Source: Sphingobacteriaceae bacterium GW460-11-11-14-LB5
GTDB lineage: Bacteria > Bacteroidota > Bacteroidia > Sphingobacteriales > Sphingobacteriaceae
Reading direction: 5' to 3'
Length of the DNA: 64,000 nt
Assembly (NCBI GenBank): GCA_002151545.1
Contig: CP021237.1
Location: forward strand, 4,402,001 to 4,466,000
The notes beneath the pieces are model-generated. The model did not search any database and was not told the origin of the DNA. It saw only the letters and a list, made by a program, of their open reading frames with translations. The stretch's first letter is position 1. Each line of letters opens with the position of its first letter. Both the position numbers and the translations under genes were made by a program. Below, piece by piece: positions 8,818 to 30,500 of this stretch.

Positions 8818-9309
8818 TTAGCTTGCAACGTTCGCTTTTTGATCTACATTGAAGTAATCTTTATGATCTTCGATCATTTTAGCAATGGTAGCGGCTTTAG
8901 TATCGGTTATTTTAAATTCGAATAATGGCTCTTGATTTTTCTTAGATCTCACCATTTTTTCTGTGTAAAAGCGGTACACTAAACCATTGGTTAATAAACC
9001 ATATTTAGCTTTTGTTTTACGGAAATATTTAGATAGGCGTGAATCGTGAATATCTAAATTATCGTTGTGGTGTTTACATTCAACCAGAATGGTTGGTTCG
9101 CCATCTTTCATAATGGTGTAATCCACTTTTTTACTTTTTTTAACCCCGAAGTCTAGAACAGCTTCAGATTGAACCTCTGAGGGATCAAATCCTAAGATTT
9201 GGATAAAAGGCATAACTAACGCGTTCCTTGTTAAATCCTCAGATTGAACTTGTGGAAGCATTTTCTTAATTCTTACGGCAAACTGCCCGATTTCGTCTTT
9301 CAATTCCAT
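8818..9309 (-). CDS. Stand-alone HsdR N-terminal-like PD-(D/E)XK nuclease domain protein
   Basis: 163 residues matching the type I restriction enzyme HsdR N-terminal domain. Asp63 in KVDYTIMKDG and E77-C-K79 in TILVECKHH give the D-x13-ExK core of the PD-(D/E)XK fold. The following helix and the KYGLLTNGLVYRFYTE strand are also typical. There is no helicase or motor domain and no HsdM or HsdS in the window, so this is not a restriction system as it stands. Such orphan domains are common in Bacteroidota chromosomes with no settled role. It follows a 124-residue unknown gene by 21 bases, probably one operon. Confidence 0.8.
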   Translation of the reverse strand: MELKDEIGQFAVRIKKMLPQVQSEDLTRNALVMPFIQILGFDPSEVQSEAVLDFGVKKSKKVDYTIMKDGEPTILVECKHHNDNLDIHDSRLSKYFRKTKAKYGLLTNGLVYRFYTEKMVRSKKNQEPLFEFKITDTKAATIAKMIEDHKDYFNVDQKANVAS

Positions 9310-9705: not shown

Positions 9706-10086
9706 GTGGAGGCTTGGTAGATGTAGGGGGAATATTTCTTTGCTTTTCGGTAATTTTATCTTTTTTAGTTTTTAATAATCTTTAACCCAGTATTGTATGG
9801 CCTGTTTTTAATTTTATTATCTACAGGCTACACAAGATTGGGCAGGCAGATGTTTTTCACAACTAGTAGTTTTCACTGCTAACTGTTTTTGTTTTTGGCA
9901 AACAGTATAAAGATTATAAAAAGAAGGGATTCGGATAATTTTTTTACATCAACTACCCAGAATATTACACGAAACCCAGGTTTTTTTTAGACGAAACCCT
10001 GGATAAGTTTTTTAGTGCTATTGTTAATTCAATTCATTTTTATTTAACTTGCATTCAAATCAAATAAAACAAACATATTTATACTC
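9706..10086. other. 381-bp intergenic region between divergent genes
   Basis: AT-rich with homopolymer T runs. No reading frame over about 15 codons was found on either strand. It contains the 22-bp-spaced direct repeats at 9969-10002 and a weak promoter candidate for the LytTR regulator (TTG at 10021, 21-base spacer, TAACTTG at 10045). Nothing else was recognised. Confidence 0.6.
9969..10002 (+). promoter_or_regulatory. Candidate LytTR direct-repeat operator upstream of the regulator gene
   Basis: ACGAAACCCAGG (9969-9980) and ACGAAACCCTGG (9991-10002) differ at one base and start 22 bp apart, two helical turns. LytTR-domain regulators such as AgrA bind paired ~9-bp direct repeats separated by 12-13 bp with a GTT core; the reverse complement here gives GGGTTTCGT. 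The pair lies 85 bases before the LytTR gene. A similar pair occurs at 11067-11097. Relative to the gene it serves, its orientation is opposite to that second pair, which lowers confidence. Confidence 0.5.
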
Positions 10087-10830
10087 ATGAATCTAAAATG
10101 CGTTGTTATAGACGACGAGCAACATGCAATTGAAGTATTAACTGACCACATTGCGGAAATGCCTGGTTTAACAGTTTTTAAAACCTTTACCAGCCCTGTC
10201 CAGGCACTTACAGAGATAAGTATCGAGGACGAAATTGATTTATTGTTTATGGATATTGATATGCCAGGGATCAATGGATTGGAGCTGGCTAAAAATATCA
10301 GAGAAAAAGCAAAATATTTGATTTTTACTACTGCGCATCCTGATTATGCCTTGCAAGCATTTGATGTACAATCAGATCAGTACTTATTAAAACCTATTTC
10401 CTTTGCAAAATTTGCATTAGGTATTGACAGGATTTTAAAAAAGGAAGCAAATAATACCAAAGTGAGCACGAAAGAAGCTGATCAGGTAGCGGCACTTTAT
10501 ATTAAAGGCGACCATAAATATGCTTTTTCTAACATCGCTATTGATGAAATACTTTACATCAAAGCGCTACAGAATTATATACAGATTATTACTAAATCTG
10601 AAACCCACACTACCTACCTTACCCTGAAGGAAATTGAAAAGGCCTTAGAAAACCACGCATTTATCCGTGTTAATAAATCGAACATTGTTGCTAAAGCGGC
10701 AATTAAAAAAGTAGATGGAAATATAATCCGTTTGGTAAATAACGAGATGATCCAAATTGGCGAAGGTTATAAAGAAGCTTTCTTCGCCTATGTACAGAGC
10801 AGTTTGTTAAAATCTAATCGAAATCAATAA
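10087..10830 (+). CDS. LytTR-family DNA-binding response regulator
   Basis: 247-residue two-component regulator. Residues 1-120 form a receiver with CVVIDDEQHAIEVL, phosphoacceptor Asp56 in LLFMDIDMPGING, and the Lys in YLLKPISFAKF. Residues ~140-245 form a LytTR DNA-binding domain, with ILYIKALQNYIQIIT, TLKEIEKAL and FIRVNKSNIVAKAAI as the typical strands. The cognate kinase is almost certainly the LytS-type protein at 11123-12238, separated only by the oppositely oriented 47-codon peptide gene. Paired AAACCC repeats upstream suggest autoregulation (inference). Confidence 0.93.
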   Translation: MNLKCVVIDDEQHAIEVLTDHIAEMPGLTVFKTFTSPVQALTEISIEDEIDLLFMDIDMPGINGLELAKNIREKAKYLIFTTAHPDYALQAFDVQSDQYLLKPISFAKFALGIDRILKKEANNTKVSTKEADQVAALYIKGDHKYAFSNIAIDEILYIKALQNYIQIITKSETHTTYLTLKEIEKALENHAFIRVNKSNIVAKAAIKKVDGNIIRLVNNEMIQIGEGYKEAFFAYVQSSLLKSNRNQ

Positions 10831-10834
10831 ACTA

Positions 10835-10978
10835 CTAAAGGTCTACGATCCAGCTAGTCATTACTACTGTGTGGCTTTGGTCACCTGTAGGTGTAGTTGA
10901 ATAATTATTTTGAGCTTTGATGTTTTTATAAACGAAAACAGTTTTTTTAGCTAGTTTAGTTGTGTTTTGAGCTTTCAT
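10835..10978 (-). CDS. Candidate RiPP precursor peptide (class I lanthipeptide-like leader), 47 aa
   Basis: A 47-codon frame from ATG 10976-10978 to TAG 10835-10837, checked codon by codon. N-terminal half: MKAQNTTKLAKKTVFVYKN, a basic leader of the general KL-x-KKTV kind seen in Bacteroidota class I lanthipeptide precursors (from memory, not searched). C-terminal half: YSTTPTGDQSHTVVMTSW then IVDL, with eight Ser/Thr in the last 21 residues and no Cys anywhere. It is the only frame of note in the 292-bp gap and has a well-placed promoter (11039-11069). It sits between a LytTR regulator and a LytS kinase, 1.3 kb from the 3' end of a LanB dehydratase gene. Without Cys, lanthionine rings cannot form within the peptide; dehydrated residues or another modification would be expected. 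The alternative is an unmodified signal peptide for the kinase, or a chance ORF. Confidence 0.6.
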   Translation of the reverse strand: MKAQNTTKLAKKTVFVYKNIKAQNNYSTTPTGDQSHTVVMTSWIVDL

Positions 10979-10988
10979 GATATTTATA
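10907..10988 (-). repeat. Duplicated ~24-bp segment spanning the peptide start and its interior
   Basis: TTTTGAGCTTT followed by CATG (10965-10979) and by GATG (10908-10922) on the plus strand, with TATAAA-containing flanks in both. In protein terms KAQN occurs at residues 2-5 and 21-24, both preceded by related TATAAA-x-ATC/CAT sequence, 57 bp apart. This looks like a small internal duplication of the initiation region into the coding frame. Confidence 0.5.
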
Positions 10989-11038
10989 TTTTAATGTGAT
11001 TATTTATTGTTGTTATTAATTTCTGTAAAGATGCGGCG

Positions 11039-11069
11039 CAAAATTAACCTCAACTACTTTTTTACACAA
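11039..11069 (-). promoter_or_regulatory. Promoter for the 47-codon peptide gene
   Basis: Read on the minus strand: GTTTTG with TTG at 11067-11069, a 20-base spacer, then TAATTTTG at 11039-11046. This fits the Bacteroidota primary sigma consensus (TTG, 19-21 bases, TAnnTTTG) exactly at the -7 element. It leaves a 5' leader of roughly 55 bases before the ATG at 10978. Confidence 0.65.
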
Positions 11070-11097
11070 AACCCCAATTTTAGGAGATAAAAACCCT
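11067..11097 (-). promoter_or_regulatory. Candidate LytTR direct-repeat operator between peptide and kinase genes
   Basis: On the minus strand GGGGTTTTG (11067-11075) and AGGGTTTTT (11089-11097) have their GGG-TTT cores in register 22 bp apart. The proximal copy contains the -33 TTTTG of the peptide promoter, the position expected for an activator that recruits polymerase. The pair is also 25 bases upstream of the divergent histidine kinase start. It resembles the pair at 9969-10002. Confidence 0.5.
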
Positions 11098-11122
11098 ATT
11101 TCAATAGATTTAAAGCGAAAAA

Positions 11123-12238
11123 ATGACTTTTTCAATCCTCAAAACATTATATAAAAAATACAAACTCCACCTACTTATCTGGAGTATTTACATCATATAT
11201 GAAGTATTTATTTTAGGTTATGCATCTAAACAGTTCAAACCACCAGGCATTTATCTTCTTATATATTTAACTAATATTTCTACTTTTTATCTTCATACAT
11301 TTTTGCTCAAGAAAGTATTAAGTAAAAAAAATACCACACTCAGAATTGTAAACATTCTATTACTGATTGCTGCTATGTTAGTAACCTACATCGCAGCAAG
11401 TTATGTACTCCTTTTATTATTTCAAAAAATCGGGGTCATAGAATTCAACATGGCGAATTTTGTCCCTCGTGATTTCATACTTTCCTGCATGTATAGATCC
11501 TTATACTTTATCGGCTTTGCAACGGGTTATGTTTATCTAATCAAATCATTTCAAGATCAGAAGAAAGTAGAAGCCTTAGAACGACAAAACCTGGTTACCC
11601 AGATAGAGAAACAGGCTTTAGAGAATGATCTGGTTCAATCGCAAAACAATTATCTCCGCAGTCAGATCAACCCACACTTTCTTTTTAATACTTTAAACTT
11701 TATTTATAACGACGCCCGCAAAAAGGCACCCATGGCGGCAGATGCAATTATGAATCTGGCCGAAATGATGCGTTATGCACTAAAACGTCCTGAAGCATCA
11801 GAGATGGTTCCACTAAGTGAAGAAATTGAGCAAATTGAACACCTGATCAATCTCCATAAACTCCGAACGGCAAACACCATTAACCTGGAACTTGAAGTAA
11901 CGGGCGATATGTTCGGATTAAGGTTTCCACCACTGATCTTATTAACTTTGGTAGAAAACATCTTTAAGCACGGAAATGTTTCGCACTCTACTCAACCTGC
12001 CCTGATTAAAATTGCTTACGAAAAAGATAGTCTAAATATCAGCACCATCAACATGATTAATGATAATAAAGGCAAACAGACCGAAAGCCATCATGTTGGA
12101 ATTGACAATATTGGCAAGCGACTGAGTAATTTTTATGGCAATGATTATATCTTCAGGTATTACAAAGATCCCCTTAACCGTTATATTACCGAAATAGAGG
12201 TAACTGTAGTCAACCCGCTGGCCAGGTTAAACCGTTAA
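11123..12238 (+). CDS. LytS/YehU-type sensor histidine kinase
   Basis: 371-residue membrane sensor. Four hydrophobic helices at about 12-32, 43-62, 75-100 and 118-141, with almost no periplasmic loop. A coiled coil follows (~142-175). The His_kinase domain (PF06580 type) has phospho-acceptor His185 in SQINPHFLFNTLN. The C-terminal HATPase part has TLVENIFKHG and a GIDNIGKRL motif. It pairs with the LytTR regulator at 10087. A poly-helical sensor without an extracellular domain resembles kinases that detect small membrane-active or peptide signals (inference). Its stop codon overlaps the LanB stop by 4 bp in a tail-to-tail TTAA. Confidence 0.92.
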   Translation: MTFSILKTLYKKYKLHLLIWSIYIIYEVFILGYASKQFKPPGIYLLIYLTNISTFYLHTFLLKKVLSKKNTTLRIVNILLLIAAMLVTYIAASYVLLLLFQKIGVIEFNMANFVPRDFILSCMYRSLYFIGFATGYVYLIKSFQDQKKVEALERQNLVTQIEKQALENDLVQSQNNYLRSQINPHFLFNTLNFIYNDARKKAPMAADAIMNLAEMMRYALKRPEASEMVPLSEEIEQIEHLINLHKLRTANTINLELEVTGDMFGLRFPPLILLTLVENIFKHGNVSHSTQPALIKIAYEKDSLNISTINMINDNKGKQTESHHVGIDNIGKRLSNFYGNDYIFRYYKDPLNRYITEIEVTVVNPLARLNR

Positions 12239-15033
12239 ACTTTCATTGCATTTTGACGCTGAATATCTTTTAGCAGAAAATAGTACATGACCATTTCATG
12301 TGTTCGCTGGTCTTTGCTGAAAAGTCTGTTGACGTGCATATGCATTAAATCGGTTAATAGCTTTAGTGCATTTTCGGGCGCACATTGTTTAAGAATGCTG
12401 ATAAACGAATCTGAAAATATGCCAAAGCCCTGCTCCTGCTCTGCTGTTAATGCTGTCCATTCTGTTTTACGAAACTCCTGATAGTGGTTGTTTAACTGCT
12501 TAAAATCAGCGGCATCTAACCGGTGTTCCTCATTAAAGTTATCAGACATTAACTTCACTATTTTATGGATAGCCAGCTTATCCAGAATGTTGGATTCGAT
12601 AATCTTTGAGACCAAAAGGCTACACCCTTTATATTTGTTAAAATCATCAGCCTGGGTTGCTACAAGTGATAATACAAATTCGCTGTCCAGCTCAAAATGC
12701 TGCTCAACATCTTCAATCATATTATGACCATAACGCTCTAACTCACGCTTATAGGTTTTAATCTGCACATCGGATACCAGTCCTGAATTTATGAACAATT
12801 CCAGATCATCCATAAATTTTGAGGTTAACAGCTGCCCATCCATAGGATCGTTTAGCTGAACCCTAAACCTGATGTGGTTTCCATTTTCATTGTAGCGGAT
12901 AAAAAACCATGATTTGATCTGACCTGTATGATGGCTGAGGAAGGGTGCAATTACTTCTGTCAAAATCTGATCACTGCGCTGCTGGTGGCAATAAATTTCG
13001 AAATACAGCCATTCTTTGCCTGGCAGGAAAAATCGCGTTACCCCTGCGTTTGCAGCAGTTTTAGTTAAACCACGATAAACCTGTTCGCCATGCCCTATAC
13101 TTAAAACAAACTGAGCAAAATAGGGTTTGGCTGCTTCATCAACCACGATACTGTTTTGAGGCAGCAATGTTTCTTCAATGTAAGTACCGCCATGTTTTTG
13201 CACATATTGCAGAAAAGCATTTAAATCATCGTCGTTTTGCAAAGCAAAGCATAGAGTTTGATCGGATATACCTGCTTTGAAATATTCACTAACACCTAAA
13301 CTGCTCAGGTATGCTCTACAATCGGTAATGGATAGCCACTTTTGATCTGGTCCTAAGAGGGCTTCTTTTTTAATTTTCCATTTATTACTGCTTAAAACTA
13401 TATTTTGATATTGTAACCTTGGATAATAATCCAGATCAGGGAAAACAGTATCAAGTGAAAAGGAAAGATTTGTTTGTAAACCCTGATGTTGCAAATCGCA
13501 CAGTAACCTAAATACAGAAAGATCTGAACGGGTATAGTTATAGGCTGAAGCCATTCTCGGCACCAACCGTTTATTGAAATGTTTAGATCGAAGAATAATC
13601 TCTGTGCCCCGAACTGAAATCTGTATATCATTTAAGGCAAGTGGCGATGCTGAGGTATCGAAATTTAAGATTGATAATTGATGTCCATAAATCAGTTTGC
13701 GCCGGTTTACATTATCTACATTGGCTTCTACAATGTAGGCCACATCAAAAAATAACACCTCGGGGTTTGCCTGTTGTTCTGCAGCTGCAATATTTTGGGC
13801 GTACTGTGCTACCTCATCGGCAGCCATTGTAAACCTTCCGCTTAAGGCATTCGATGTTGCTCCCCCAATCTGTTCGATAAAAATCAAATCGTCGTGAACA
13901 GCCATTACCATGCTGAATGAATTGGGTAGCGATACTAATTTATCATTGGGCTTTAAGGCCAGTTTGTTCAGATAAACAGTTTTATCTTTTTCGAAGTTTT
14001 GCGCGGTCAGGTATGTTCTTAATGCCGTTTTAATATTTTCGCTTTCCGCTTTTTTCGGCGGCTTATTATTGAAACGCGTGATAAACTCGCTGTTTTCACC
14101 GGCCTGTTCCAGCTCATCATAACCTACCCCCATTTCGGGATCTAGTGCCAATAAAAGCGGTACTTCCTGATCTTCGAATTTCTTTTTAAACCTGAGCTGA
14201 AACTGACTCAGCGCATCACGATCTTTAGCAGGCATTATACCATGGAGCATATTGATCAGACCTGGAATAGCCTGAAACAACCGTTCATTAATGCCACCCG
14301 ACAAAACATTACGCTGCGCGATAAGATATTTTGGCAACTCGGCTGTAGCAGTGAGGCCTAAACGTTCAAAATAATCATCACCTATAATATTAGGATCGTA
14401 GTTGGTAAAAACAAGCTGTAAATCGTGCATATCCTGCAGCAAAGCGAATAGGTTTTCGGTTTCAGCCTCATTTAAATTTATGTGTTTTACCAGATCGTTA
14501 AGCCTAACCGGTGTTAAGCAGGCCGCTAATATTTGTATTACAAAGTCATCCTGATCTAACTCGGCCAGTTCGAAAACACCATCTGTACAGGCGATATAAC
14601 GAATACTGTTGGGCGTTAAATAATAACTAGTATTACTAAACAGGAGACAGTTTTTTTGCAGCAGTTCTGCAAATGGCAATTGAATATTATTCTTATATGG
14701 CCAATCAACCAGTTCGCGGAGCTTTTGGGTTTCTTCTATTACTATTCTGCTTTCAGATGGCTTAATGGCATCGTTTAATAAACTAAAACCTGCAAAAGTG
14801 CCGTAAGGGGTTGACCGGAATTTCGCACGGTTAAAATATTTCCAGATGGTAAAATAAACCTTAGGTGGAAGATCTTTAAGTTCGTTTGCTTTTACTTCTT
14901 TTATGGTTTCGTAAAAAGCTGCCGAAGATACGGATATGGCCAGTTTTAATTCCTCCCAACAATCTACCAGTTCGGATTGATATGAAAATTTAGGTGTTCT
15001 AAAAATTACAGTTGGTTGGATATTAAGCTTCAT
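12235..15033 (-). CDS. Full-length lantibiotic dehydratase (LanB) with SpaB_C domain
   Basis: 932 residues, close to NisB length. The N-terminal ~640 residues match the glutamylation part of class I dehydratases (opening FRTPKFSYQ, then KYFNRAKFRSTPYGTFAGFSL). The C-terminal ~280 residues match the elimination / thiopeptide-type SpaB_C domain (KEWLYFEIYCHQQRSDQIL, SWFFIRYNENGNHIRFRVQL). Both halves are present in one chain, so Ser/Thr dehydration through tRNA-Glu-dependent glutamylation and elimination is plausible. No LanC cyclase, protease or exporter is seen nearby. The nearest candidate substrate is the Cys-free peptide at 10835-10978. The gene converges on the sensor kinase, and a tandem repeat lies just upstream of its start. 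Confidence 0.9.
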   Translation of the reverse strand: MKLNIQPTVIFRTPKFSYQSELVDCWEELKLAISVSSAAFYETIKEVKANELKDLPPKVYFTIWKYFNRAKFRSTPYGTFAGFSLLNDAIKPSESRIVIEETQKLRELVDWPYKNNIQLPFAELLQKNCLLFSNTSYYLTPNSIRYIACTDGVFELAELDQDDFVIQILAACLTPVRLNDLVKHINLNEAETENLFALLQDMHDLQLVFTNYDPNIIGDDYFERLGLTATAELPKYLIAQRNVLSGGINERLFQAIPGLINMLHGIMPAKDRDALSQFQLRFKKKFEDQEVPLLLALDPEMGVGYDELEQAGENSEFITRFNNKPPKKAESENIKTALRTYLTAQNFEKDKTVYLNKLALKPNDKLVSLPNSFSMVMAVHDDLIFIEQIGGATSNALSGRFTMAADEVAQYAQNIAAAEQQANPEVLFFDVAYIVEANVDNVNRRKLIYGHQLSILNFDTSASPLALNDIQISVRGTEIILRSKHFNKRLVPRMASAYNYTRSDLSVFRLLCDLQHQGLQTNLSFSLDTVFPDLDYYPRLQYQNIVLSSNKWKIKKEALLGPDQKWLSITDCRAYLSSLGVSEYFKAGISDQTLCFALQNDDDLNAFLQYVQKHGGTYIEETLLPQNSIVVDEAAKPYFAQFVLSIGHGEQVYRGLTKTAANAGVTRFFLPGKEWLYFEIYCHQQRSDQILTEVIAPFLSHHTGQIKSWFFIRYNENGNHIRFRVQLNDPMDGQLLTSKFMDDLELFINSGLVSDVQIKTYKRELERYGHNMIEDVEQHFELDSEFVLSLVATQADDFNKYKGCSLLVSKIIESNILDKLAIHKIVKLMSDNFNEEHRLDAADFKQLNNHYQEFRKTEWTALTAEQEQGFGIFSDSFISILKQCAPENALKLLTDLMHMHVNRLFSKDQRTHEMVMYYFLLKDIQRQNAMKV

Positions 15034-15063
15034 TGAATTTAAATGTCAGGGGAAAATTACAAA

Positions 15064-15436
15064 GATTAATTTAGATTATCAGTTTTCAGTGGGCAGTTTT
15101 CCGTTCACAAATTAGTTTCCGGTTCTGCGTTTATCACCTAAAATCAGCGGGATTACAAATCCGGAACTGCAATGATTAATTTAGATTATCAGTTTTCAGT
15201 TGGCAGTTTTCAGTTCACAAATCAGTTTCCGGTTCTGCGTTTATCATCTAAAATCAGCGGGAATACAAATCCGGACCAGCAATGATTAATTTAGATTATC
15301 AGTTTTCAGTTGGCAGTTTTCAGTTTACAAATCAGCGGGAATACAAATCCGGACCAGCAATGATTAATTTAGATTATCAGTTTTCAGTTGGCAGTTTTCA
15401 GTTTACAAATCAGCGGGAATACAAATCCGGACCAGC
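15064..15436. repeat. Four-copy tandem repeat upstream of lanB (110, 110, 78, 75 bp)
   Basis: Units begin at 15064, 15174, 15284 and 15362 with GATTAATTTAGATTATCAG. The first two are 110 bp. The last two lack a 32-bp internal block (TTTCCGGTTCTGCG and following), removed between two AATCAG copies. Units 2 to 4 are nearly identical. No reading frame of note runs through it. It occupies most of the 466-bp gap between lanB and the PorE-like gene. Confidence 0.9.
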
Positions 15437-18550: not shown

Positions 18551-21500
18551 TTATCTAATCAGCGTTACTGTACCTTTTCTCAATGATGTTGTTCCATTGG
18601 TGAAGGTGATATCAACCATATACACATACACACCAATTGGTTGATTTACACCTTTAAAAGTTCCATCCCATCCATTTGCTACATTGTCTGACTGGAATAT
18701 CAATTGACCCCATTGTGTGTAAATACTCATTTTGGCGCTTGATATGGTATTACCGTAGATTAAGAAGGTATCGTTCTTACCGTCGTTATTCGGCGTAAAT
18801 GCATTTGGTATGTAAACCTGATCTCCAAAAGGATTAGCAGCTTTACCAGTTACCGGAGTTGAATTTGCGCTGGTTTGGCACTCAAGCTGACCTCTGGCCC
18901 TTACAATAATGGTTACACTTTGATCTGGTTTCAAGCCTGTAGCTAAATAGGTTGTTCCGGTTGATCCACTTGTTGGATTGATCCAGGTTAAACCATTATC
19001 CAGCGAAACTTCGTATGCCGTAGCACCTGCAACCGCAGCCCATGCAAAGGTTACACTATTTGGTGTTGTGCTTTGTACCACTACTACTGGTTTTTCTAAT
19101 ACCGGCAATACATTCACCGTAACACCCGTTCTTGTTGGACTTGCACAACCACCCACTGCTACTGCTTCTACGTAATAGATTGTGGTAGCCGTTAAGTTTG
19201 GTGTAGTAAAGGTTATACCTTCTGCTAATACGGGTCCGCCAGAGCTTGCTGCATACCATCTGTAAACTAATCCTGTTACCGGATTATTAACCGTTAATAT
19301 GGTTGAACTACCTGCGCAAAGTGTTCCGTTTGCTGCTGTTACCGATGCTGGTGCAACTGGTACTGGTAGCGCAATTACATTTACTGGCGTTCTAGATGAT
19401 GAAATACAAGTTCCGTTTGCACCTTCAACATAATAAGTGATGTTTGCGTTAACTGCAGGTGTTGTAAAGTTTACGCCTGTGCCTGCTAACGTTCCGCCTA
19501 TTGCTGCGGTGTACCAATTGTAGGTTACCCCAGTTTGAGGGTTGGTAACCGTTAATACAGCCGGACTTCCTGTACAAACACTAACAGATGTTGCGGCAAC
19601 TGTTGGTACCGTAGGTTTCGCATTTACAGTTACCGTTACTTTAACACGCCCACCGTTGTTGTTACAACCTCCCGTACCGATTGCTAAAATGTAGTAATCT
19701 GTGGTGGCACTTAAAGCGGTAGTATTAAATGTTGTACCGGTGAATAATAAATTACCGGCAACTGCTGCATTGTACCATTCGTAGGTCACTCCTGCTTGTG
19801 CATTCGTTACGGTTAGTGTTGCTCCATCGCCTGCACAAACACCACCATTCGGACCAGATACTACTGGATTGTTAGGTAATGCATTTACGGTAATGGCTAC
19901 AGCCCTTGCTGTTGCAGCGGTATTTTCACATTTGTTATCACCTTTAACGGTTACATAGTATGTGGCGTTTGCCGTTAATACCGGAGTAGTAAACACTGGA
20001 CCAGTAAATACCACTGTATTTAAGGTCGCATCGCTATACCAGGTAAATATTGGATTAGTCACCGTTGTGCTGCTTGCTGCTAATGTTGCTGCTGTGCTTG
20101 CACAAACTGAAGTTGATCCGTTTACGGTAATATCTGTTGCCACCGCATTTGGATTAACAGTAACAGTTACTGTTTTCGCGTTCGCCGCAGTGTTTTCACA
20201 TTTATTGCTTCCTTTAACCGTTACATAATAAGTTTTAGTAGCTGTTAATACAGGAGTGGTAAATATTGGTCCGGTAAAGGCCACACTGGTTAACGAAGCA
20301 TCGTTGTACCAGGTAAATACCGGATTGGTTACAGTTGTTGAACTTGCATTGATTACCGCTGTTCCTGAACCACATATTCTAGCTGGGGTTGATAAGGTAA
20401 TATCCGCAGCTGTTGCGCCTTGATTAACATTAACCGTTACCACTTTAGCCGTGATACCTGAGTTTTCACACTTGTTATCACCTTTAACTGTAACATAATA
20501 TTTAGTTGTTGCAGTTAATACAGGGGTAACGAATGATGTTCCTACGTAAGCTACCGAAGTTAAGGCCGCATCGTTGTACCAGGTAAATGTTGGATTGGTT
20601 ACGGTAGTTGTACTGGCTACTAACGTCGTTCCAGATCCTGAGCAGATTGTGGCATCAGTTGCTGTTATATCTGCAGCAGTAGCAACCGGATTAACGGTTA
20701 TTGTAATTACCCTGGCTGTACCCGGTGCATTTTCACATTTATTATCGCCTTTAACCGTTACATAATAAGTGGTGGTGCTGTTTAAAGCAGGTGTAGTATA
20801 GGTTGCGCCAATGAAACTTACATTGGTTAAAGCGGCATCACTATACCAGGTAAATACCGGATTAGTTACTGTTGGTGATGTTGCACTTAATACGGCCGAT
20901 GATCCTGCGCAAGCAGATGTGCTTCCGTTTAGAATAATATCGGTAGTTGTTGCCAATGGATTAACCGTCACGGTTACTGCTTTAGCATCAGCTGCAGTGT
21001 TTTCACATTTATTGGCACCTTTAACGCTTACATAATAAGTAGTGGTGGCCGTTAATCCGGTTACGGTAAACGTTGGACCCGTAAATACTACACTGGTTAA
21101 TGAAGCATCGCTATACCATGTAAATACTGGCTGGGTTACTGTTGTACTCGAAGCCATTAACATTACAGTAGAACCTGAACAGATTTTAGCATTGCTTACT
21201 GCAATATCTGCAGCTGTTGCAAATTCTTTAACGGTTACGGTAACTACCTTAGCATTTGCCGCTAAATTCTCACATTTATTATCACCTCTTACGGTTACAT
21301 AGTAAGTAGTGGTGGCACTAAGTGCAGGTGTAGTAAAGCTGGCACCTACATGAGCTACAGTGGTTAATGCTGCATTGCTATACCAGGTAAATACCGGATT
21401 AATTACTGTTGTTGTTGAAGCAGACAGTGCGGCTGTTGATCCTTTACAGATCGTTGTTATACCATTGATGGCAATATCTGAATCAGTAGCTGCCGGATTA

Positions 21501-24500
21501 ACAGTGATGGTAATCGATTTTGCAGTAGCTGCTGTATTCTCACATTTATTATCGCCTTTAACCGTTACATAATAAGTGGTGGTTGCATTAAGTGCAGGTG
21601 TAATAAAGTTAGCACCTGTAAACGCTACCGTAGTTAAAGCCGCATCACTGTACCAGGTAAATACCGGGTTGGTTACTGTGGTGCTGGTTGCATTTAAAGT
21701 AACAGAAGAGCCACCGCAAATGGTGCTTGTTCCTGCTAAGTTAATATCAGTAGGGCCGGCAACTGGGTTAACCGTTACGGTTACCTCTTTTGCATTACCT
21801 GCTGTATTTGCACATTTATTTGTGCCGCTAACGGTAACATAATATTTAGTTGTTACGGTAATGGCTGGTGTATTAAATACGGCACCTACAAAAGCTACCT
21901 GTGTTAAGGCGGCATCGCTGTACCAGGTAAACACGGGACTGGTCACTGTTGTACTACTTGCAGTAAGTACTGCTGTTCCAGAAGCACATAATGATGTTGT
22001 TCCGGTTACTGTTACATCGGCAGCAACTGCTGATGGATTAACTGTAATGGAAACCTTGGTACGTGTTGAGTTTGAACAACCCGCTCCACTTACGGCTTCC
22101 ACATAGTAATCATGTGGTCCTACTGCAAGCGATGCAGGTGTAGTAAAGCTACTGTTGTTGGTTACCAACATGTTGCCGCCTGTAGCAGCATCGTACCAGT
22201 TATAAGTAATACCTGCCACTGCCTGTACACTTAAGGTAGCAGATGAGCCGATACAAGTTGTGGCTGGGTTGGTAGTAGACGGAATCGGTGCTACTGCCGG
22301 AGGTAAGATAGTTACCACTACTTTGGTTCCTAAAGTCTCGCAACCATTAGCTGTTGCCGTTACCGAATAGGTATAAGTACCTGCAGTTAAAGCTGGATCT
22401 GTTGTGAAAGTTGTTCCGTCTTTTCCTGCCTGATAAGTTGAGCCTAAGTACCATTTGTATACCACTCCTGCTTGTGGGTTCTGCACGCTCAATGTTGCAG
22501 ATGAACCTTGACAAGCACTTGCTGTAGCAGCGCTAACGGTTGGTGTGGTGATTACACGCTGTGCATAATCTAAATTAACAGATGTTAATGCGCCCAATAA
22601 GCCCGAGCTTAACCTCAATTCTGCTCCATCAAATTTACTGGTTGGAACGAAGGTTAATATAGCAGATGTACCGCCTGATAATAATTTTAAACTGATTAAT
22701 GGGTTAGATATTGAAACCGCATCGTTATTGCTGGTTGTACCCTGGAAAGTAGTTACCGTTAAGTTGTTTAACACCCCTACTGAAAGCAATGCACCCGGAG
22801 TGGTAATTTTCACTCTTAAAGTATCGCCTACATTTGATAATCCGGTAAAGCCAACCTGGTGATAAACAGATGCACCAAGTAATCCCACTGGGATAACTAA
22901 ACTAGATCCGGTATTGATATCGTTATCAACCGCAAAAGTTGGATTGAAAACACCGGCCAGTAAAGCTACGCCCGTTACACCGCTTGCAACTGTTGTGGTA
23001 GCCGCTCCACAAGGTGTGGTTACCGGTGTACCATTAGGAATTACGGTAACCGTTACCGTTGCCCTGCTTGTTGCAGTACATCCACCCGGAACTGTAGCTT
23101 CTACATAATACGTTGTAGTTGCGGTTAATTGTGGTGTTACATAAGTTTCACCAGTATATACCGGAACTAGTCCGTTTGCAGTAGTGTACCAGTTAATGGT
23201 TGCACCTGCTGTGCTCGAAGTTGCTTTTAATACGGCAACAGAACCTTCACTGATGGTAATTGATGGCGGCGTAATTACCGGAACATCTATAGTACCCAAT
23301 ATAATTTTAGCCTCAGTTCTTGTTGACGAGCTACCGCAGCCATTTACCGCTGCCACGAAATAACTTCTGTTGGCTGCAATTAATGGTGTTGTAAAGTTAT
23401 CACCTGTAAACAATACGGTTGTAGATACTGCTGTATCGTACCAGTTATAGGTTGTGCCTACAATTGGATTTTTAACCTGGAAAGTAACCGATGTATTCGG
23501 ACAAGTATTAACAGATGCTGATAATAGATCTGGTGTTACCGGTGCCGGGTTGGTGGTTACATTAACTACTGTTTTATAACTTACGCAACCTGTTGCAGAA
23601 ACTGCGGCAACATAGAATTTCGTATCGCCTGTTAATACTGGTGTGGTAAATATGATACCATCTTTACCAGTTAAGTAAGTGCCTGTGGCATCGTACCACC
23701 TGTAAGTTAAACTTGCTGATGGGTTGCTTACCTCAAGCTGAGCGGTTTGGCCCACACAAGCCGTAACATTTGCTGATGCTACAGTTGGTGCCACTAAAAT
23801 ACGTTGTGCGTAATTTAAGTTGATTGATGTTAAAGCACCTAATAAACCAGAGTTTAACCTTACTTCTACCCCATCGAAAACATTCGTTGGTACAAAAGTG
23901 ATCAAAGCCTGGGTATTGCCGCTTAGCAATTGAATATTGATTAAGTTATCATTTAACAATCTCGAATCACCATTGCTGTTGGTTCCAACATAAGTGGTAA
24001 TAGAGGCGTTTCCTAATAACGAAAGTGATAATAGTTTTCCTGGTGATGATACCAGAACACGTACGGTATCACCAACTTTAGATAACGAACCGAAACCAAC
24101 TCTTTGATAAACAGATGCACCAAGTGCTCCAACTGGCATAACCAGTGAAGATGCAGTTTGTGTATCGTTATCAATCGCTAATGTTGGATTAAACACGCCT
24201 GATAATAAAGCTACACCTGTAACGCCACCAACTTGTGTGGTTGCCGCCTCGCATGGTACCGGATTTGGAGATCCGTTTCCATCAACGGTGATGGTTACCT
24301 GAACGCGACTTGCAGAAGTACAACCATTGGTAGAAACAGATTCTACATAATAGGTTGTAGTAGCCAATAATGGAGGAGTAACATAAGTAGCGCCTACATA
24401 AACTGGTGTAGTTGAAGTATTAGAAGTATACCAATTGAAAGTATTGGTTGGATCTGCCGAGCTGGCTGTTAAAATTGCAGTTTGCCCTGCGCTCACTGTT

Positions 24501-27500
24501 GATGAACTTGCAGTTACTACAGGTAAAACCGGACGAGGATTTACGGATACAGCCGCCGCAGCACGTGCAGCACTTGTACAGTTTCCTTGAGCGGCTTCAA
24601 CATAATAGGTCGTAGCTGCCGTTAATGCTGGTGTTGGGAACACTGCACCTGTGAAAACCAGGTTTCCACCTACTGCAGCATCGTACCATTTATAAGTTAC
24701 CGCAGCATCTGGATTAGCAACCGATAAAGTTGCTGATGATCCTTCACAAACATTAGCAATTGTAGCCAATACTGGTGTTGGTAATGCTGGTGTAACCGTT
24801 ACCGTTACCGGAACTCTTGTTACGTTCGGACAACCACCTTTGCTTACTTGGATATAATAAGTGGTAGTAGCAGTTAAAGCTGGTGTAGTGAATGTTTCGC
24901 CAGTGGCCAATTGTGTACCACCGGTTGCAGCATCGTACCAGGCTAATGTTGTACCACCGTTTGCTGTTGCAGTTAAAGTTGCAGTGCTTCCGGCACAGAT
25001 GGTTTGAGCACCTGCAGTTACCGTTGGATTAGGATAAATTACCGTTGCACCATAAACATCTAAACTGGTTAAAGCTGTAACTAATGCGCCGAAGCTCACC
25101 TGTACCCTATCATAAGCACCGCCTGCTAATATGGTTGCAGCGAAACGGTTACCTGATAACAGCTGGAGATTTAATAATCCGCCGTTTAATTGTACTGTTT
25201 TTACAACGGTAGTACCATTTAATACGGTAACCGTTACGTTGTTTAATAAACCAACATCAGCTAAACCGGTTGGTAATGCTAAGTCTAAACGAAGACTATC
25301 TGTAGCTGTTCCAGCGTTAGGGAAAATTAATTGTTGGTAACCTGAGCCACCTACACCTACAGAAAGAGATATTCTGGTAAAGTTAGCAGGATCAGCATCA
25401 GTAGAATTTCCTGCGCCGGTTATACCGCACAATAAACAAATTCCGTTTATACCTGAGTTTTGTGAATTAGCAGCGTTACATGCAGTACCACCACCGTTAT
25501 TTAATACGGTAACGGTTACTGGTACGCGGCTTGCACTTTTACAACCACTGGCATTGGTCGTTTCTACATAATAAGTAGTCGTAGCCGATAATGTTGGTGT
25601 AGTAAATGAAGTTCCTGCGCCTACCTGTGTTCCACCTGTAGCAGCATCGTACCATTGAATGGTATTTCCGGCATCAGCCGTTGCCAATAAAGTAGTCGAC
25701 TGTCCGGCGTTAATTACCTGGCTGTTGGTGGTTACTGTTGCCGCAGTTGCTGGTGGGTTAACCGAAACATTAACTGCAGTTCTTGAACTTACAGCTGTTC
25801 CTGATACCGCCTCTACATAAAATACTGTTGGAGCAGTTACTGCAGGTGTTACAAAAACACCTGTATTATTGGTCACCAAAGGTGTACTTCCGGTAGAAGC
25901 ATACCAGTTATAGGTAACACCAGCTTGCAAATTGCTAACGCTTAAGGTAGCAGGGCTTCCGGCACACACTGTAGCTGCTGCAACCACTGGTGCATCGACC
26001 GTTACGGTTAAGCTATAGGCTGTTGTTGCTTTGTTTCCGTTGGCATCTGTTGCGGTTAAAGAGATGATAAACGTTCCACCTAAAGTTGGTGTTCCTGTAA
26101 TTTCTCTTGTTGCCGTATTAAAACTTAATCCCGGAGGAAGGTTTGTTGCTAAATAAGTATATGGTGCTGTTCCACCGGTTACCGCTGGCAAAGTTTGCGT
26201 TGGATATGGTGTACCTACAATACCATTTGGTAAAGTTGCACCAGGTAATGATAATACCCCAATTACTTTAAGTGCATAAGTATTACTTGCGGTTCTGCCT
26301 TCACTATCGGTAGCCGTTACGCCAATTGAATAATTTCCGGCTTGTGTAGGTGTACCCGAAACTTCTCTTGTTGCAGGGTTAAAAGTTAATCCCGCTGGAA
26401 GATTAGTTGCTACATAAGTATATGGACCAACACCACCAGTTGCCGAAGGCAGGGTTTGTGTAGCATATACTGTTCCTTCAGTTCCATCAGGCAAAGTTGC
26501 TGCTGGTAAGACTAAAGGATTAACAACCGTAATGCTATAATTATTGCTTGCTGTTTTTCCGTCAGCATCGGTCACCGTTACCGGTACAGTGAATGTACCT
26601 GCTTGTGTTGGCGTTCCTGAAATTGCTCTTGTAGCCGGATCAAAAGTTAATCCCGGAGGAAGACCAGTTGCCGCATAAGTATAAGGTGTTGTTCCACCCG
26701 TTGCAGATGGAATAGTTTGTGTAGGGTAAACAGTTCCTGTGGTTCCATTGGCTAAAGTTGCCGCAGGTAACACCAAAGGATCGGTTACTTTAAGCGTATA
26801 GTTAGATGTAATGGTATTGCCATTGGCATCTGTTACGGTTACCGGAATCGTAAATGTTCCGATTTGAGTTGGCGTACCTGTAATTTCTCTTGTTGCCGGA
26901 TTAAAGGTTAATCCTGGAGGAACACCAGTAGCCGAATAAGTATAAGGACCTGTTCCGCCTGTTGCAGCTGGAATTCCATTTGTAGTATATGGCGTACCGG
27001 TTACGCCGTTAGGCAATGCTCCCGGAGCCAACGCTAATGCTGGTGTTACCGTTAAGGTAAAAGTAGCAGTTGTGCTACAGCCTTTGGTATCGGTGGCCAC
27101 AACATCGAATGTTGGGTTACCCGTTGCAGTTGGTGTTCCACTTACCAAACCACTTGGCGATAAGGTTAAACCAGCTGGTAAAGTACTGCCGGCAGCTAAG
27201 GTATAAGTATAACCTGGTGTACCGCCGGTAGCAACCGGAAGTTGTTTGCTGTAAGGAGATGCAATGGTTGCATTGGTTAAAGTAGTACCTGCGAATACAA
27301 TTGCCGGATTAACCGTAATTGTTACCGGAACCCTTGTTGTATTTGAACAGGTTCCTTTAGTTACCTGAACATAATAAGTAGTAGTGGTGGTTAAAGCAGG
27401 AGTAGTGAAGTTGGCTCCTGTTCCCACTTGCGTTCCACCTGTTGGTGCGTCGAACCAGGTTAAGGTTGTACCACCATTTGCAGTTGCACTTAAGGTTGCT

Positions 27501-30500
27501 GTACTGCCCGAACAAATAGATTGTGCACCAGCAATAAATGTTGGATTAGGATAAACTACGGTTGCACCATAAATATCTAAGCTGGTTAAAGCCGAAACTA
27601 ATGCGCCGAAGCTTACCTGAACCCTATCATACGCACCACCTGCCAAAACAGTTGCTGCAAAACGATTGCCCGATAAAAGTTGAAGGTTTAATAATCCTCC
27701 GTTTAATTGTACTGTTCTTACTACGGTAGCACCGTTTAATACAGTTACGGTTACATTGTTTAAAAGACCCACATCAGCTAAACCGGTTGGTAAAGCTAAA
27801 TCTAAACGGATGCTATCAGTAGCCACACCTGTAGATGGGAAAATTAATTGCTGGTAACCTGTAGCGGCAACACCTACAGCAAGAGAAATCCTGGTGAAGT
27901 TGTTGGCATCAGCATCAGTTGAATTACCTGCGCCATTTACCGCACATAACAGACAGATCCCATTAATACCTGTATTCTGACCATTAGCGGCATTACAAGC
28001 TGTAGCACCACCGCCGTTAATTACGGTTACTGTTACCGGAACGCGGCTTGCGCTTTTACAGCCATTGCTGCTTGTGGTTTCTATATAATAAATTTTAGTT
28101 GCAGTTAAAGCTGGGGTAGTGAACGAAGTTCCTGTTCCAACCTGTGTTCCTGCTGATGGTGCATCAAACCAGGCGATGGTATTTCCAGCGTCGGCAGTTG
28201 CCGTTAACGTTGTAGTTTGTCCGGAGTTGATCACCTGGTTATTCGTCGTAACCGTCGCTAAAGTTGCAGGCGGATTAACGGAAACACTAACCGATGTTCT
28301 TGAACTGATTGCTGTTCCGGAAACGGCCTCAGCATAAAACACGGTTGCCGAATTTACAACAGGTGTTACAAAAGTACCGTTGTTACCAGTTACCAATGGG
28401 GTGCTTCCGGTAGATGCATACCAGTTATAAGTTACACCTGGTTGCAGGTTACTAACCGTTAAAGTTGCAGTACTACCTAAACATACCGTAGCAGAAGCTA
28501 CAACCGGAGCATTTACTGTTACGGTTATGGCATAAGTGGTTGTTGCTTTATTGTTATTTGCATCAGTTGCTGTTAAAGAAATATTATAGTTACCTCCTTG
28601 TGTTGGCGTTCCGGTAATTTCTCTTGTAGCTGGGTTGAACGATAATCCCGGAGGAAGGTTCGTAGCTACATAAGTATATGGCGAAGTACCACCTGTTACC
28701 GCAGGTAAAGTTTGTGGTAAGTATGAAGTACCTACAATTCCGTTAGGTAAAGTTTTAGTCGGCAAGGTTAACGTTCCAATTACTTTAACTGGATAGGTGT
28801 TGCTTGCTGTTTTACCTTGACTGTCAGTAACGGTAACATTTATTGCATAATTACCGGCCTGGGTTGGCGTACCTGTAACTTCTCTTGTTGCCGGATTAAA
28901 CGTTAAGCCTGCAGGAAGATCAGTAGCGATATAAGTATAAGGGCCAACACCACCTGTTGCAGCTGGAAGAACCTGTGTAGCATAAGCCACATTTTCTGTT
29001 CCATCTGGTAAAGTTGCCGATGGTAATACCAATGGACTGTTTATCGTAATGCTGTAATTTGTAGTCGCCGTTTTTCCGTCAGCATCTGTTACCGTAACGG
29101 GTACGGTATAAGCTCCCGGTGTTGTTGGTGTACCGGTAATGGCTTTAGTTGACGGGTTAAAAGTTAATCCCGGAGGAAGGCCTGTTGCCGAATAAGTATA
29201 AGGTGTTGATCCACCAGTTGCACTCGGAATAATCTGCGTAGGATAAACTGTTCCTGTTGTACCGTCAGCTAAAGTGGCCGCAGGTAGTAACAATGGATCA
29301 GTAATTTTGATCGTATAGTTCGAAATAATGGTGTTTCCATTCGCATCAACAACGGTAACCGGAATCGAATATGTTCCAGGTTGCGTTGGTGTTCCGGTAA
29401 TTTCTCTGGTTGCCGGATTAAATGTTAAGCCCGGAGGCACACCTGTTGCACTATAAGTATATGGTCCTGTTCCGCCAGTAGCTGCCGGAAGAGTTTGTGT
29501 TGGATAAACCGTTCCGGTCACACCATCAGGCAAGGTACCTGGTGCAAATACCAACGAAGCTGTTACTGTTAAACTGTAAGTTGCAGTTGCTTTACAGCCT
29601 TTACTATCTGTTGCAACCACATCGAAAGTTGAATTACCCGCTACAGTTGGTGTTCCTGTAATTGCACCAGTTGGCGACAGGGTTAAGCCAGCTGGCAAGG
29701 CACTGCCCGCAGCCAAAGCATAAGTATAACCTGCTGTTCCACCTGTAGCTGCTGTTAATTGTTTAGAATAAGCAAAGCCCGGTGTCGCATTGGTTAATGT
29801 TGCCCCATTAAAAATAATTTGTGGGTTTACTGTAATTACGACAGGAATCCTTGTCGATTCTGCTGTACAGCCTATTCTTCTGGCGGCAACATAATAAGTT
29901 TTAGAAGCAGTTAATGCAGGTGTTGTGAAAGTACCATTAAAAGCAACTGTTTGTAAAGCTGTTCCACCTTCAATGGCATCATACCATCTCAATTCATTGG
30001 TATTTGGCGTAGTGGCGTTTAAATCTACTGTACTGTTGTAACATGCAGCAATGGCCGTGCTCGCCGGCGTTGGTCTGCCTGCAGAGCGAATTACACCATA
30101 AACATTAAGGGTTTGCGTCAGGTTTAAGGTAACTACTGAGCCCAGTGTTACTTTCACCCTGTCGTATACCACATTTGCACCTGGAGAAAACGGTATCGAC
30201 ACCGGTTGACCACTATTTAATAAACCCAGTAAATCCAGATTTAAGGTAGTCGGAACTGATCCGGTATATACCTGGGTACCGCCGTTATATGCTGTAATTG
30301 AAATATTTTGCAAAAGCCCTGCTGTTAATAAAGCAGGAGTAGAACTAAACCGAAGGTTAATATCGTCGCCAGGATTTGATGGCGTTGCAAAATAAAAATT
30401 TTGGCTAATGGATGAGCCCACGCCAAGTATACCTAAACTAAGTTGAGAAAAATTATTTGGGTCGGTATCAATGGCCCTTTCGCTATTGGTTACCCCTGAG

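Follow-up and report, generated by a model that had tools for sequence, protein, structure and literature searches.

The window, a 64,000-nucleotide stretch of DNA (positions 4402001-4466000 of a single-contig 6.18 Mb genome from a Sphingobacteriaceae bacterium), contains a compact four-gene locus encoding a LytTR response regulator, a short precursor peptide, a LytS-type histidine kinase and a LanB dehydratase (Table 1). A preliminary description had noted the Cys-free peptide gene between the LytTR and LytS genes and a full-length LanB gene converging on the kinase gene with a shared TTAA; this observation held, and all four reading frames were confirmed where it had placed them. Its statement that the locus consists of only four genes, without LanC, protease or exporter, also held: no exporter, protease or immunity gene was found at the locus. 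An AgrB-type processing gene was absent, and the 23 longer loci (L062-L084) showed no conserved gene of the locus beyond the four. In the source genome as a whole, a genome search found one LanB match and no match to PF05147 (LanC cyclase). The seven C39-domain matches in the genome all lie away from the locus, and the peptide has no Gly-Gly site.

Table 1. Features in and around the locus (positions within the window).
Feature	Position	Strand	Details
HSDR_N (type I restriction enzyme N-terminal) small protein	8818-9309		Adjoins the locus and is kept there in relatives
Second putative operator	9969-9999	-	GGGTTTCGT-N13-GGGTTTCGT, upstream of the LytTR gene; no binding data
LytTR response regulator	10087-10830	+	247 aa; Pfam Response_reg 1.6e-17, LytTR 2.6e-16
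Precursor peptide	10835-10978	-	47 aa, MKAQNTTKLAKKTVFVYKNIKAQNNYSTTPTGDQSHTVVMTSWIVDL; leader ~1-28, predicted signal part ~29/32-47; same place in all close homologues
Predicted peptide promoter	11039-11071	-	TTTG-N20-TAATTTTG; read from sequence
Putative direct-repeat operator	11066-11095	-	GGTTTTTAT-N12-GGGTTTTGT, in the gap separating the divergently transcribed peptide and kinase genes; no binding data
LytS-type histidine kinase	11123-12238	+	371 aa; Pfam His_kinase (PF06580) 1.1e-21
TTAA common to the stop codons of kinase and LanB	12235-12238		
Full-length LanB dehydratase	12235-15033	-	932 aa, glutamylation and elimination domains; Pfam Lant_dehydr_N 1e-60, Lant_dehydr_C 2e-55
Tandem repeat	15060-15436		110-bp and 78-bp units, immediately upstream of LanB
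Long reading frame	18551-31204	-	4217 aa

Conservation of the locus and of the peptide

A LanB search gave matches in 115 of 145 congeneric genomes, 30 being negative. Each of the 29 further best LanB loci examined first has the peptide in the corresponding position, and the LytTR/peptide(s)/LytS/LanB arrangement was found in 23/23 of the longer loci. The four-gene order is the same in all close Pedobacter homologues, and those relatives of the locus that bear names all come from Pedobacter species, apart from one Mucilaginibacter MAG. Loci with a divergent LanB (28-49% identity), which lie in other genomic neighbourhoods, mostly keep the arrangement, as do a Mucilaginibacter locus (L224) and two loci of genus g14. 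The conservation check proposed in the preliminary description, on the peptide/LytTR/LytS/LanB order, was therefore run and passed across Pedobacter and Mucilaginibacter. At some divergent loci no peptide was detected by profile and small T-rich frames lie at the same place, several of them with a DPT motif and a different leader; the loci with the most divergent LanB likewise carry T-rich DPT peptides whose leader is different. Other gene orders occur at some LanB loci (L085, L087 and L143, among others), and LanB relatives of ~1000 residues are also present in the genus, so that not all LanB proteins are part of the system.

A peptide profile (E <= 0.01) matched 102 of the 145 congeneric genomes, 100 of which were LanB-positive (Fisher p 8e-17, without phylogenetic correction). 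Only two peptide-positive genomes had no LanB match: G100, with a completeness of 80%, and G102, with a marginal peptide match. At the family level, the profile search found the peptide in 108 of 400 sampled genomes and in 7 of 25 genera; at the class level, among the genomes drawn, it was found only in this genus at E <= 0.001.

The leader carries a conserved motif, K-[LI]-x-x-x-T-[LV]-F-[VI]-[YF]-K, and the family consensus reads K-L-x-K-x-T-L-F-V-Y-K-S, then T-D-P-T, then a T-rich tail. Among 138 related precursors, the Ser/Thr fraction of the core averages 29% and a core Cys occurs in only six. Neither the peptide alone nor its family matched a family in Pfam, NCBIfam or PHROGs.

Many relatives carry the peptide gene as a tandem array of up to eight copies beside LanB. 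Within 21 arrays, the tail (last 18 residues) is 93% identical and the leader 82%, the tail being the more uniform (p 2e-4); between loci, the corresponding values are 34% and 61%. Array tails show amino-acid differences of 0.068 and synonymous differences of 0.346, compared with 0.127 and 0.194 for array leaders. As synonymous sites differ more in the tail than in the leader, selection and not conversion keeps the tails uniform, and gene conversion was rejected as the source of this uniformity. Single in-array copies with a shifted or ambiguous reading frame were seen at L095 (5800-5928) and L065 (5707-5841).

These data bear on the possibility that the small frame does not represent a peptide gene at all, but a chance ORF or a regulatory transcript. 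The frame is indeed short and without a database family, but it is conserved and tandemly amplified, and its tail is under protein-level selection despite diverged synonymous sites, so that this explanation is virtually excluded.

LanB and the loci that lack it

The LanB protein matches NisB by sequence (phmmer 2e-19), and its AlphaFold2 model (pLDDT 80) has NisB, MadB and MibB as top Foldseek matches (E 4e-37 to 2e-33). Eight NisB residues are known to be catalytic, namely R83, R87, T89, R784, R786, E823, R826 and H961; these correspond to LanB R69, R73, T75, R722, R724, E764, R767 and H898, and all eight are invariant in 28 homologues, as is H900. A comparison of genome lists covered 55 genomes that have a close LanB orthologue, and 27 of them are also without LanC. 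With no LanC in the source genome, as in these 27, and Cys only seldom present in the peptides, a linear Dha/Dhb peptide is to be expected and not a lanthipeptide; both this product and the Ser/Thr dehydration itself are inferred.

The association between leader and LanB appeared strong at first (partial r 0.46), and dropped to 0.14 (p 0.06) when LytTR and HSDR were controlled. It therefore mostly reflects species relatedness and alone is no proof of leader recognition, and we did not count it as support.

Additional LytTR/peptide/LytS loci that share the leader motif but have no LanB exist in many genomes, among them the source genome. Twelve such regions with peptide and LytTR/LytS genes were identified (L125-L128 and L145-L152, with L151 truncated by a contig end), the one in the source genome being L145 (peptide at 1369554). 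In 18 further satellites (L269-L286), a LytS kinase adjoins the peptide in every case and a LytTR gene was detected on the peptide's other side in 15. It is possible that one LanB serves several peptide channels, service in trans being inferred; the satellites could also mean that modification is unnecessary for signalling.

In a rival explanation, the unmodified peptide signals to its LytS kinase, and the adjacent LanB acts on some different substrate or plays an accessory part. In its favour are the LanB-less satellites and the weakness of the leader-LanB covariation after species control. Against it, the presence of the peptide tracks that of LanB across genomes, LanB adjacency is retained in divergent loci and different contexts, the cores are rich in Ser/Thr, and the loci with the most divergent LanB have T-rich DPT peptides with a different leader. 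Hence, we consider an unmodified signal unlikely.

Peptide tail, kinase sensor and operators

The LytTR regulator is 87-97% identical in loci where LanB is only 49-70% identical. An AlphaFold2 model of the kinase (mean pLDDT 71) predicts long helices at residues 2-35, 41-67, 74-103 and 115-180, followed by the kinase core; we read helices 1-3 and the start of helix 4 as membrane helices. The sensor half is hypervariable, with a maximum at residues 61-120, and the kinase half is conserved.

Across 52 loci, tail distance tracks kinase-sensor distance given LanB (r 0.72, p 0.0005), as against 0.08 for tail distance and LanB given the sensor. A further set of 42 loci with longer flanks, partly shared with the first, gave a partial Mantel r of 0.71 (p 0.0005) when LanB, LytTR, the HSDR flanking gene and the kinase C-terminus were controlled. 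The association also persists when the TANT clade is left out, and both inside and outside the close clade. Per residue, position 29 and most of positions 32-43 covary with the sensor and most leader positions do not; the exceptions, leader positions 12 and 14, probably reflect one clade. Of the two parts of the peptide, the leader is the closer to the kinase gene, yet its association with the sensor is only r 0.10-0.17; linkage therefore does not explain the tail-sensor covariation and was rejected as its cause. Shared ancestry is not fully corrected in the Mantel and Fisher tests. The covariation itself is shown and is an agr-like ligand-receptor signature; activation of the kinase by an extracellular peptide is an inference.

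A modified bacteriocin-like antimicrobial, sensed by its two-component system and having killing as its main function, would be another explanation, and the nisin locus indeed pairs a class I LanB with a two-component system of its own. However, the locus has neither immunity nor exporter nor protease genes and the genome lacks LanC, the tail diversifies together with the kinase sensor, one tail is common to the copies of an array, and the satellites consist of a peptide and sensor system only. We therefore regard this explanation as very improbable.

Two putative operators, direct repeats of the LytTR type, were found at the locus. Most orthologous loci have a repeat pair similar to the one between the peptide and kinase genes, and its distance from the kinase start hardly varies; the second operator is opposite in sense to the LytTR gene and precedes it in the window and in some relatives. 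The -33 element of the predicted peptide promoter, which we take to be of the Bacteroidota -33/-7 type, falls inside the second repeat of the peptide-kinase operator. The motif was derived from the window first, so that the scan of relatives confirms conservation and is not a blind discovery. A strict genome-wide search recovered both operators and gave no convincing target genes beyond the locus, the matches being mostly AAACCCT repeats and intragenic sites, with L253 as the sole intergenic candidate. The AAACCCT (TTTAGGG) heptamers form short arrays at several chromosome sites outside the window (L240-L243, L247-L252 and L256-L257) and resemble plant-type telomere repeats.

The proposed circuit and known systems

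We consider it likely (probability about 0.7), without any experiment, that the locus is a modified-peptide, quorum-sensing-like signalling circuit. The conserved leader of the short precursor would be recognised by LanB, which would glutamylate and eliminate Ser/Thr of the C-terminal part to give Dha/Dhb, and the product would stay linear without Cys and LanC. Gene order, conservation, intact LanB active-site residues and the absence of LanC are shown here; leader recognition and dehydration are inferred. Cleavage of the peptide, close to the T-x-P-T motif, and its export would fall to machinery encoded outside the locus, again by inference. The mature tail would be sensed by the membrane sensor of the partner LytS kinase, which would phosphorylate the LytTR regulator, and this may bind the direct-repeat operators and feed back on the locus; tail selection, tail-sensor covariation and the operator repeats are shown, ligand binding and autoinduction inferred. 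The LanB-less satellites, whose peptides carry this leader motif, may use the same LanB in trans, which is also inferred. Against the circuit stand the lack of an exporter or protease at the locus, of a Gly-Gly site in the peptide and of convincing further targets in the strict operator search.

The preliminary description had proposed an autoinducing modified-peptide circuit. This is supported by the tail-sensor covariation and by the operators upstream of the peptide and LytTR genes, modification, export and signalling remaining inferred; the tandem arrays, LanB-less satellites and tail-sensor covariation are new beyond it. A bolder reading, which we would neither favour nor discount, is a multi-channel network in Pedobacter and Mucilaginibacter, in which one LanB hub would dehydrate several Cys-free precursors, each with its own LytS/LytTR pair, giving species-specific linear dehydroamino-acid pheromones.

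The preliminary description knew of no published system with exactly this content, and none was found in the open-access literature and family databases searched (most subscription papers were outside the search). From sequence, the locus appears to be an undescribed cell-to-cell signalling system in soil-dwelling Pedobacter, in which peptide and sensor would evolve together. If true, it would represent Bacteroidota modified-peptide signalling based on a lantibiotic dehydratase but not on the cyclase that goes with it, and many peptide-receptor specificity groups would become directly testable.

By the criteria for class I lanthipeptides, the LanB glutamylation and elimination domains are met, and LanC and a core Cys are not. 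Bacteroidota class I leaders have been described as carrying LxLxKx5L, and many of them end in GG and go with a C39 protease (PMC7268733); no LanB was reported in Bacteroidales (PMC10352776). The locus shares with pinensin-type lanthipeptides a class I LanB in Bacteroidota, but its leader motif is different and there is no GG, Cys, LanC or C39 protease at the locus. The mining in PMC7268733 was anchored on LanC and discarded ORFs without a core Cys, and such mining cannot see loci of this kind.

The nisin and agr features compared here are general background. As with nisin (NisB/NisK/NisR), a peptide, a LanB and a two-component system occur together, and LanB has a NisB-like fold and catalytic residues. 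Unlike nisin, the Pedobacter locus is without LanC, protease, exporter and immunity genes, its precursor is almost always Cys-free, and it has a LytS/LytTR pair, tandem precursor arrays and LanB-less satellites. It differs from staphylococcal agr (AgrD/AgrC/AgrA) in being without AgrB and, having no Cys, without a thiolactone, in the LanB that adjoins the peptide, and in belonging to Gram-negative Bacteroidota. Like agr and related peptide quorum sensing, however, it combines a hypervariable tail that covaries with a hypervariable membrane sensor, a conserved kinase half, and a LytTR regulator with a direct-repeat operator at the peptide gene, the repeats being conserved although binding data are lacking.
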